Assembly: GCA_903921785.1 (NCBI GenBank)
Contig: CAIXRH010000260.1
Location: forward strand, 1 to 63,690
DNA from: an uncultured Pseudomonadota bacterium
Lineage (GTDB): Bacteria; Myxococcota_A; UBA796; SXON01
Reading direction: 5' to 3'
Length of the DNA: 63,690 nucleotides
A program made the translations under genes and the position numbers. Position 1 is the stretch's first letter. Every line of letters begins with the position of its first letter. A model generated the notes under the pieces. It was not told the origin of the DNA. It made no database searches and saw only the letters and a list, made by a program, of their open reading frames with translations. Shown here one piece after another: positions 50,275 through 55,200 of this stretch.

Positions 50275-50425
50275 GGCACGGGTCGGCGACGAAGGTGGGT
50301 TCACCTCCCGGTGGTCCAGGCGGCGTCGCGAGCCCGAAGTGGGCCAGCCCGAAGTGGGCCAGCCCGAAGTGGGCCAGCCCGAAGTGGGCTAGCCATGACC
50401 GGCGTCGGCGGACGCGCTGCCGCGA
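50275..50425. repeat. Dispersed repeat B, copy 2
   Basis: Shares GCGTCGCGAGCCC, AAGTGGGCC, AGCCA-GAC and GCGTCGGCG with the element at 55047-55200. The internal AAGTGGGCC part is expanded into a tandem array here (50331-50390). The gap 50263-50707 holds this element and the palindrome at 50523; I see no gene in it. Confidence 0.55.
50331..50390. repeat. 15-bp tandem repeat, four copies
   Basis: AGCCCGAAGTGGGCC repeats four times, the last ending GGGCT. Each unit can form a small stem (GCCC/GGGC) around GAAGT. No spacers, so not CRISPR. It is an in-place expansion of one segment of repeat B. Confidence 0.85.
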
Positions 50426-50522: not shown

Positions 50523-50539
50523 TTTGACCATCGGTCAAA
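50523..50539. promoter_or_regulatory. Perfect 17-bp palindrome upstream of the redox operon
   Basis: TTTGACC (50523-50529), ATC, GGTCAAA (50533-50539) in an AT-rich patch about 170 bases before the start at 50708. It resembles a dimeric-repressor operator; the regulator is unknown. Confidence 0.5.
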
Positions 50540-50707
50540 CAACCGAGGAACGAACCTGGATATCGGATGTCTGACCGAATGGCGCCCATGAACGAAGGGG
50601 GCTAGCCTCGAAGAGTCTCGGAGCTTCCCCGCCTTCCCCCAGACCCGCCCTAGGGGGGATCGGGTGGATCGATCGCCCCCCAACCGTCGGCCACCCTCGG
50701 GTGTCGC

Positions 50708-51010
50708 GTGGATCCACAGGTACGAACTCTCCTCTCGCGGCTGCAGGCGGACTCCGGCTTCGCCGACCGTTACTTCGCGAACCCCGGCGCCGTGCTCGCC
50801 GAGTTGCAGATTCCTGAACCGGAACGCGCGGCCCTCGCCACGCTGAACCGGGACGCCGTGCTCTACCTCGGCGAAGCGGAGCGCGTGGAGCCCAAGCTCG
50901 CTCCAGAACACCCGACGAACAACACGGGGAATCGGCACATGACCGTCGTGATCGCCCTATGGGGCTGCGCGGCGTTCGTCGTGGCGTGGCTCCTCATGAG
51001 GGCGACATGA
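50708..51010 (+). CDS. LigA-like leader-type membrane peptide (100 aa)
   Basis: The first 55 residues (LLSRLQADSGFADRYFANPG, AVLAELQIPEPERAALATLN) resemble the helical leader seen in LigA-subunit-like and Nif11/Franean-type RiPP precursor peptides. A polar stretch (EHPTNNTGNRH) follows, then one C-terminal hydrophobic helix (VVIALWGCAAFVVAWLLM). GTG start. It overlaps the ferredoxin gene by 4 bases. The C-terminal helix makes a normal secreted RiPP unlikely; it may be a small membrane subunit of a redox complex. Confidence 0.55.
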   Translation: MDPQVRTLLSRLQADSGFADRYFANPGAVLAELQIPEPERAALATLNRDAVLYLGEAERVEPKLAPEHPTNNTGNRHMTVVIALWGCAAFVVAWLLMRAT

Positions 51011-52029
51011 ACCGAATCGTGCCCAAACGGCGCCGCCCCGGTGTGCTCAACCGGATCCGCCTCGGCGTCCTCGCGCTCCTCTGCGCGGCGCTCGGGTTCC
51101 ACACCTGGGCGTGGTACGCGCTCGGGTGGCACCGAATCGGAAAGTTCAGCTTCTCCGGGCTTGCTTCCGTGCTGGTCGGGCACGTGAACACTGCCGCGGT
51201 CTTCTGTCTCGTGCTGGTGGTCTCGCTCGTGTTCGTCGGTCGGTTCTTCTGCGGCTGGCTTTGCAAGTTGGGGGCGTTCCAGGAGCTCACCGAAGCGGTG
51301 TATCGGCGGATCGGCTTCCGTCCGCGGCTCATCCACAGTCGGGCGCGCATGGTGCGGCTCTTCATGTTCGTCCCGTACTTCCTGCCCGTGCTCTATGTCT
51401 GGGCGGGAGACCTTGCCTCCAAGCCGCCGTACTTCAACCTTGGCGCTGTCGAGCCCTGGACCGGCGACCTCCCCAAGACGGTGCTCGGCTCGATCTTCTA
51501 CTTTGTGACCGTGACCTTCGGGCTCACCGCGCTCTTCGGGCGGCGCGCATTCTGCCGACTCGTGTGCCCCTTCGCCCTGTTCTTCCAGCTCTTCGAGCGC
51601 ATCCCCTGGCTCCCGCGCATCCAACAGACCGGGCGCTGCATCGGCTGCGACGTGTGTGACCAGGTGTGTCCGATGGGCATCGCGGTGGAGAACGAGATCC
51701 TCCGACTGGGCCAGGTGACGGACCCCGAGTGCATCCGCTGCCTGGTGTGTGTAGATGTATGCCCGGTGAAGGCGCTGAAGTTCAAGTCGGGTCGACCGGT
51801 GGTGGCCCAGCAGCCCGACCTCGCGCCGACGTTCCGGGAGAGCGCGTTCCCCGTTTGGGTGGACGTGGTGCTCGCCACGCTGGCCGTGATTGGCGGGGTG
51901 TGGATCACCATCCCGTACACCGGCTTCTTCGTCTTCCTCGGCGCCTCCTGGGGCCTCATCGCCGGCGCCGCCGCCGTGGCCCTCGTCGCGGCATTCTCCA
52001 CGACCTCCCCCACGAAGGAGCCCGCATGA
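51007..52029 (+). CDS. NapH/MauN-type membrane ferredoxin (340 aa)
   Basis: Inner-membrane quinol- or thiol-linked electron-transfer protein of the NapH/CcoG-like group. It has four or five hydrophobic helices, the characteristic RFFCGWLCKLGAFQE and RAFCRLVCPFALF motifs, and two 4Fe-4S clusters near residues 210-260 (CIGCDVCDQVCPMG and CIRCLVCVDVCPVKA). No nap, nos or mau genes accompany it, so its partner is probably among the small proteins and nitroreductase of this operon. Overlaps of 4 bases on both sides. Confidence 0.85.
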   Translation: MNRIVPKRRRPGVLNRIRLGVLALLCAALGFHTWAWYALGWHRIGKFSFSGLASVLVGHVNTAAVFCLVLVVSLVFVGRFFCGWLCKLGAFQELTEAVYRRIGFRPRLIHSRARMVRLFMFVPYFLPVLYVWAGDLASKPPYFNLGAVEPWTGDLPKTVLGSIFYFVTVTFGLTALFGRRAFCRLVCPFALFFQLFERIPWLPRIQQTGRCIGCDVCDQVCPMGIAVENEILRLGQVTDPECIRCLVCVDVCPVKALKFKSGRPVVAQQPDLAPTFRESAFPVWVDVVLATLAVIGGVWITIPYTGFFVFLGASWGLIAGAAAVALVAAFSTTSPTKEPA

Positions 52030-52178
52030 GCGACACCCCTCCCCCGGCCGCCGGGTCGTCCGGCCTTGGTCAGCGTCAGGTGCTCTGGCTCTCGGTGGTG
52101 GCGCTTCTCGTCGTCCTCGCGGTGACCTACATGTTGGTGCCGAGCAATAGTGCTCCTTTCATATACGCTTTCTTCTAA
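52026..52178 (+). CDS. 50-aa membrane peptide of the redox operon
   Basis: ATGA overlap with the ferredoxin gene fixes the start. A polar Pro-rich head (SDTPPPAAGSSGLGQRQ), one hydrophobic helix (VLWLSVVALLVVLAVTYMLV) and a short, aromatic-rich C-terminus (PSNSAPFIYAFF). Too short for a family call; the specific tail and coupling argue that it is real. Confidence 0.6.
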   Translation: MSDTPPPAAGSSGLGQRQVLWLSVVALLVVLAVTYMLVPSNSAPFIYAFF

Positions 52179-52193
52179 GTCTGGGAGGTCCCG

Positions 52194-52808
52194 GTGCGCC
52201 CCATCATCGCTGCGATCCAGAATCGCCACAGCACCCGCAACTTCCTGGCGCAGCCGGTAGAGCCCGAGCTCATCGACACGATGATCGAGGCGGCGCGCCT
52301 CGCACCCGCGGCCTGCAACCTCTCCCATCACCGGGTCCTGGTGATCGACCAGCCCGAGGACCTTGAGGTGGTTCGCCGCGCCGCGTACAGCATGGGTGCG
52401 GTGGCCGAGGCTCCCCTCGTGCTCCTCCACATGGCGGACACCAGCCTCGACGAGCCGTTCCGCGCGATGATGGAGGCGATGGCCAGCGATCCGAACCCCG
52501 CCTTTGACCTATCAAAGCTCCGTTCCGGGCGCGGCGCCCCGTTCCAGCTCCGGGTGGGCCGCGAGTGGGCGCTGGTCAACGCGGCGTTGTGCGGCGAACA
52601 CATGATGCTCCAAGCCGTGGAGATGGGCCTCTCCGGCTGCTGGGTTCATCACTTCGCGCACGACGAGGTGCGCGAACACTTCGCGATCCCCGCCCATATC
52701 GAATTCCTGGCGTTGATGGCAATCGGATACGCCGCCAAGCCGGTGCCGGCGAGCCCCGGTCGTGGAGAGCTTCGTTACCCGAGGTATCCGGCGAACCCCG
52801 CGGGGTGA
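52194..52808 (+). CDS. Nitroreductase-family FMN oxidoreductase (204 aa)
   Basis: FMN-binding fold: NRHSTRNFLAQPVEPELID (the family RxSxRxF start with FMN-contact Arg), AARLAPAACNLSHHRVLVI (PSaxNxQPW-like loop), then ALVNAALCGEHMMLQAVEMG and GCWVHHF. Length is normal for the minimal nitroreductase. It is the last gene of the ferredoxin operon, 15 bases after the small peptide, so it may accept electrons from that membrane ferredoxin. GTG start after GGGAGG. Confidence 0.82.
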   Translation: MRPIIAAIQNRHSTRNFLAQPVEPELIDTMIEAARLAPAACNLSHHRVLVIDQPEDLEVVRRAAYSMGAVAEAPLVLLHMADTSLDEPFRAMMEAMASDPNPAFDLSKLRSGRGAPFQLRVGREWALVNAALCGEHMMLQAVEMGLSGCWVHHFAHDEVREHFAIPAHIEFLALMAIGYAAKPVPASPGRGELRYPRYPANPAG

Positions 52809-55046: not shown

Positions 55047-55200
55047 CGTGGCCGTCGCGCCGCCGACCTTTGTCCTGGCTCGCGAGGGTGGAGGAGGACC
55101 GGGAGGGAAGGGCACAATTGTCCCCCCTCCCACCTCGGCAGGAACGTCGCGAGCCCAAAGTGGGCCAGCCACGACAAACGTCGGCGCGACGGGGGAGCGA
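55047..55200. repeat. Dispersed repeat B, copy 3, with terminal inverted repeats
   Basis: The left end GTCGCGCCGCCGAC, TTTGTC, TGGCT is repeated inverted at the right end as AGCCA, GACAAA, GTCGGCGCGAC (about 55160-55190), giving a roughly 140-base element with near-perfect ends, MITE-like. It contains GCGAGCCCAAAGTGGGCC shared with 50320-50345. It fills the gap between the ABC ATPase and the Rieske-domain gene. Confidence 0.6.

Follow-up and report, generated by a model that had tools for sequence, protein, structure and literature searches.

The question raised by this locus is which of its tightly packed genes form a unit, and what such a unit would do. In the window, by which we mean the whole 63,690-nucleotide stretch of contig CAIXRH010000260.1 that was analysed, four frames follow one another on the forward (+) strand. 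Gene A (50708-51010) has a GTG start and codes for 100 residues, assigned to a helical domain of the Os1348/NHLP-clan type and a C-terminal membrane helix. Gene B (51007-52029) codes for a 340-residue NapH-type membrane protein predicted to carry two [4Fe-4S] clusters, gene C (52026-52178) for a 50-residue putative diverged DUF5989 protein with a single membrane helix and the tail APFIYAFF, and gene D (52194-52808) for a 204-residue member of the FMN-type nitroreductase family. The frames lie as an earlier note on this DNA had placed them, A/B and B/C each overlapping by 4 bases (ATGA), and C and D being 15 bases apart. All four look coding, since GC3 (0.78-0.89) is well above GC2 (0.46-0.48) in each, and the GTG start of A aligns with an ATG start in each of the three further copies of this gene. 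The same note had described a redox operon that includes two tiny membrane proteins, a description that holds for A, B and C but not for the other two proposed members, the nitroreductase and a palindrome located at 50523-50539, both of which are lineage-specific.

On sequence evidence, the conserved unit is composed of three genes, A-B-C, and not four. Searching 58 related genomes with B retrieved three closely similar copies (E ≤7e-148, 67-77% identity), after which identity fell to about 30%, and all three have A directly before and C directly after. The A-B-C order is identical in these four genomes, which belong to one family and three genera. A and B overlap by exactly 4 bases in every copy, and the start codon of C lies 4 bases inside B in all four, being ATG in three and GTG in genome G019, where an ATG 13 bases inside B is the alternative start; these conserved overlaps suggest translational coupling. 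Identity among copies ranges from 44% to 59% for A and from 46% to 67% for C, and pairwise pN/pS stays under 1 in each of the three genes (B 0.28-0.49, A 0.36-0.73, C 0.30-0.71), with synonymous sites near saturation and the values for C derived from 39 codons. Together, junctions and pN/pS argue that both small frames are real genes and that the unit is A-B-C, so that the conservation check proposed earlier for the small frames came out in their favour, A and C being conserved as proteins. The C-terminal tail of C, which was also to be checked, reads A-P-F-[IL]-Y-x-F-F in all four copies. The neighbourhoods, for their part, differ among the copies (an AAT-family acyltransferase gene, hemE/hemC, a GDSL hydrolase, GPAT and an ABC transporter), which indicates that A, B and C travel as a set. 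In G019, a gene starting at about the stop codon of C encodes a GDSL/SGNH-like hydrolase where D is found here, and the gene following C therefore varies between genomes.

With regard to distribution, when 379 genomes from across the phylum were searched with profiles, an approach that can overlook diverged copies, the same four cassettes alone were returned, for A as well as for B. A scan of 84,980 species genomes, which may omit records close to the window's own genome, named one cassette (JAUXQH010000017.1, a record labelled as a Pseudomonadota MAG), and its next match was 33% identical. Within its family, the cassette is carried by 4 genomes out of 22. From these searches, it appears to be rare and patchy. 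To our knowledge, and within the literature searched, the A-B-C combination is undescribed.

What could such a set do? We propose that the three genes, inherited in a patchy manner, together code for a small electron-transfer complex of the membrane, a reading to which we give a probability of roughly 0.45, the complex, its quinol chemistry and its topology all being predicted; the cassette gives the impression of an electron-transfer unit whose helper proteins were taken over from other systems. The proposal is centred on B, which passes the Pfam cut-offs for Fer4_5 (3.8e-13, 49.6 bits versus 22) and Fer4_10 (32.5 versus 25.5) and matches NCBIfam napH_ (8.6e-17), while staying below the cut-offs of the NapH models (61.5 of 213 bits for TIGR02163, 49.1 of 234 for NF007013, PRK09477). 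With PF12801, several membrane helices and 4Fe-4S motifs, it is a NapH-like membrane ferredoxin in the sense of PMC8238504. Its membrane helices, the CX3C (82-86) and CX3CP (183-188) motifs and the two 4Fe-4S motifs (211-221 and 242-252) mark it as NapH-type and favour the electron-transfer reading. In the structural model of B (pLDDT 69.8, moderate), the cysteine motifs lie outside six long helices, and the positive-charge pattern puts motifs and clusters on the cytoplasmic side; a structure search with this model gave no meaningful match. Most of the cluster cysteines are invariant in the alignment, even in distant relatives. Among 85 B-like proteins placed in a tree, those of the four cassettes make up a single clade with full support, on a long branch, and a pair from loci L045 and L053 lies beside it on the backbone in a grouping without support. 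As a separate observation, genome G005 encodes another NapH-like protein, a distant one that is extended considerably at its C terminus (L038:8603-9967), near genes whose translations resemble a NosZ-like reductase and a subunit of the haem-copper oxidase type.

NapH-like proteins have been described as modular and probably quinol-linked, with electrons proposed to pass from quinol through Fe-S clusters, and their partners vary (PMC8238504; PMC5928378). In the proposed complex, B would be the redox core, exchanging electrons with the quinone pool through its membrane module, as befits a NapH-like protein, and carrying them through two cytoplasmic [4Fe-4S] clusters. A would be tail-anchored, holding its Os1348-type domain in the cytoplasm near these clusters, and could serve to dock or recognise a soluble partner. 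C would be a single-span DUF5989-type subunit that stabilises B, its PF[IL]YxFF tail facing outwards or lying within the membrane. The charge bias by which A and C are oriented is weak. The soluble partner would differ by lineage, D being the candidate acceptor or donor here and the SGNH hydrolase gene following C in G019, and the electron acceptor may vary likewise. Against this reading, no terminal reductase, cytochrome or FMN-binding domain of a known kind is conserved beside the cassette, the first cysteine motif of B lacks a proline present in NapH, and a presence in 4 of 22 genomes of a single family may also fit a function that is particular to this lineage and distinct from passing electrons to a respiratory partner.

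The identity of C brings in another explanation. A profile-profile comparison of C with nine DUF5989 sequences (hhalign) gave 92.3% (E 5.7e-7) over helix and tail, against 1.1-1.2% for controls, and all four orthologs match PF19451 below its cut-off (17.6 of 27 bits for the window copy). Judged by these profiles, C is a diverged DUF5989 protein; a reading of it as a fragment of the cobalt transporter CbtA was rejected, as this match occurs in the window copy only and below cut-off, whereas DUF5989 is matched in all four. DUF5989, which is named in no paper found in the literature searched, is encoded in 46 of the 63 genomes of the order. At 60 DUF5989 loci of the order (L157-L216), a carbamoyltransferase gene lies within 4 kb in 26 and an SxtJ-like sequence in 20; one or the other is found within this distance in 42, and neither in 18. 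SxtK presumably belongs with DUF5989. The small genes sxtJ and sxtK are placed after a carbamoyltransferase gene in a different pathway (PMC2679770). From this company, the cassette could be a biosynthetic accessory unit allied to carbamoyltransferase-SxtJ-DUF5989 clusters, which we hold to be unlikely. B would then deliver electrons for the tailoring of a membrane-associated or exported product, with C as the usual DUF5989 helper. The GDSL hydrolase gene directly after C in G019 would suit such a role, as would a Bdellovibrionales MAG record (L045:3-3685) where a carbamoyltransferase with an SxtJ-like tail, a DUF5989 protein and a NapH-like protein are encoded consecutively on one strand. That arrangement is nevertheless single, without a second case in 291 genomes of its phylum; neither a NapH-like nor an A-like gene was found near any of the 60 other DUF5989 loci, and the translated frames next to the A-B-C copies, all four of them, showed no recognisable carbamoyltransferase or SxtJ-like neighbour. 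In L045, a GDSL-like hydrolase gene was also seen to converge on the row of three.

Protein A leads to a further reading, that of peptide maturation, in which A would be a precursor-like or partner protein, B would give electrons, and D or another enzyme would modify the peptide. A consists of a helical domain (about residues 1-60), a linker and a membrane helix (about 78-96, from hydropathy). All four orthologs match NCBIfam NF038399, the Os1348 family of the NHLP clan (best E 1.4e-6), the window copy remaining below the curated cut-off (23.1 of 40 bits). The AlphaFold model of A has Os1348 (6LK7) as its top structural match, with Z 6.5 over 61 residues, a value that helical bundles reach by chance, and the SonA precursor is also among its best matches, with Z 5.2, likewise possible by chance for such bundles. 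Sequence and structure matches agree on an Os1348-type domain, although Z alone could be fortuitous; a search of solved structures with the sequence profile of A gave nothing significant. The name LigA-like given to A earlier was near the mark, as one ortholog weakly matches LigA, but the Os1348/NHLP-clan domain fits better. In precursors of the NHLP/Nif11 type, a hypervariable core comes after a Gly-Gly cleavage motif (PMC2887384). The precursor nature of Os1348 and SonA, to which the domain of A is nearest, and the weak matches of all four A proteins to NHLP-clan models lend peptide maturation some indirect plausibility, yet A has no Gly-Gly site, and in place of a variable core it carries a conserved membrane helix at its C-terminal end. 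Two distant A-like domains of the Os1348 type, in two other genomes of the phylum, do adjoin genes of the MbnB/TglH/ChrH family of peptide-modifying enzymes (L147:2-1438 and L148:560-2304), while no conserved modifying enzyme, peptidase or exporter adjoins the cassette and D is not conserved. Of the peptide-maturation unit suggested in the earlier note, the domain type and putative fold of A are what survives, as weak and indirect evidence, and we regard the reading as improbable.

About as improbable is that the four genes form an operon centred on D and recently assembled in this lineage, with B and the small proteins serving as the electron supply of the nitroreductase. D matches PF00881 (1.2e-26), starts 15 bases past C on the same strand, and is preceded by GGGAGG, a sequence of the ribosome-binding type. 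Nitroreductases accept electrons from reduced carriers, which makes such a supply conceivable. The other three A-B-C copies, however, have no nitroreductase beside them, so that D cannot explain why the cassette is conserved, and no ortholog of D was matched at E 1e-25 in 57 related genomes. A four-gene operon with the nitroreductase as core was accordingly rejected, and the pairing of ferredoxin and nitroreductase, which the earlier note would have abandoned if the two were never neighbours elsewhere, does not recur within the genomes searched.

The palindrome fares similarly. TTTGACC-ATC-GGTCAAA is exact at 50523-50539, as had been reported, and lies some 170 bases upstream of A, not immediately before it. 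Perfect 7+3+7 palindromes are no rarity in this GC-rich window, which has 12, but no other among them has an A/T-rich arm, and the sole occurrence of TTTGACCNNNGGTCAAA in the 7.48-Mb genome is this palindrome. It is a possible operator in this lineage; as the operator of the conserved unit it was rejected, being missing upstream of the other three A genes, and none was found in 21 other members of the family. Also just upstream of the cassette, a 15-base tandem array of AGCCCGAAGTGGGCC (4.3 copies, 50331-50394) was noticed, with a further occurrence at 55154-55168. This array belongs to a repeat dispersed across the genome, with 95 sites that differ from CCCGAAGTGGGCCAGCC at one position at most, compared with 1 for the reversed control, and several sites of the CCCGAAGTGGGCCAGCC type sit at contig ends.

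Electron bifurcation, the remaining earlier suggestion, is unsupported: A-D contain no ETF- or NuoF-like domain, nor was one recognised in the stretches read beside the cassettes, where neighbours were scanned in part, and a role in anti-phage defence was rejected since the match to BrxP is a generic ferredoxin-type one.

Beyond the electron-transfer reading itself, it is possible, albeit rather doubtful, that A-B-C represents an undescribed type of complex, made of a NapH-type ferredoxin, a tail-anchored subunit with a RiPP-leader fold and a DUF5989 micro-subunit. If so, DUF5989, an orphan micro-protein of the membrane and a very common one, would be given a redox setting. The conserved redox pairing offers a small system for testing what DUF5989 does. 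In A, a domain of the RiPP-leader type would be tethered to the membrane, with implications for what such domains do outside peptide maturation. If the cassette is merely a clade-specific NapH variant, its importance would be modest.

Compared with known systems, D is an ordinary member of the nitroreductase family (PF00881), with 3H4O as its closest solved structure by sequence, and differs in adjoining the cassette, in this genome only. A resembles the Os1348 family (NF038399; 6LK7, PMC7726476) in the sequence and putative fold of its N-terminal domain, but differs from it by its C-terminal membrane helix and by lacking the acetyltransferase, peptidase and transporter genes that adjoin Os1348. 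With regard to flavinylated NapH-like proteins, NosR and PceC, no FMN-binding domain was found in A-D or recognised among the translated neighbours, scanned in part. B shares with NapH and NapH/MauN proteins (TIGR02163) and with NapH-like systems (PMC8238504) the membrane module, the paired cysteine motifs and the two C-terminal 4Fe-4S motifs. However, its first motif is CGWxCK, without the proline of the NapH CX3CP, two further membrane helices follow the clusters, and neither NapG, NapC, NapA nor an FMN-binding domain is seen beside it. C, finally, has the single membrane helix and P-F-[IL]-Y tail of DUF5989 (PF19451), but misses the Pfam cut-off, is two residues short before the tail and has a different N-terminal part, and its gene is partnered by a NapH-type one, not by genes for a carbamoyltransferase or an SxtJ-like protein.
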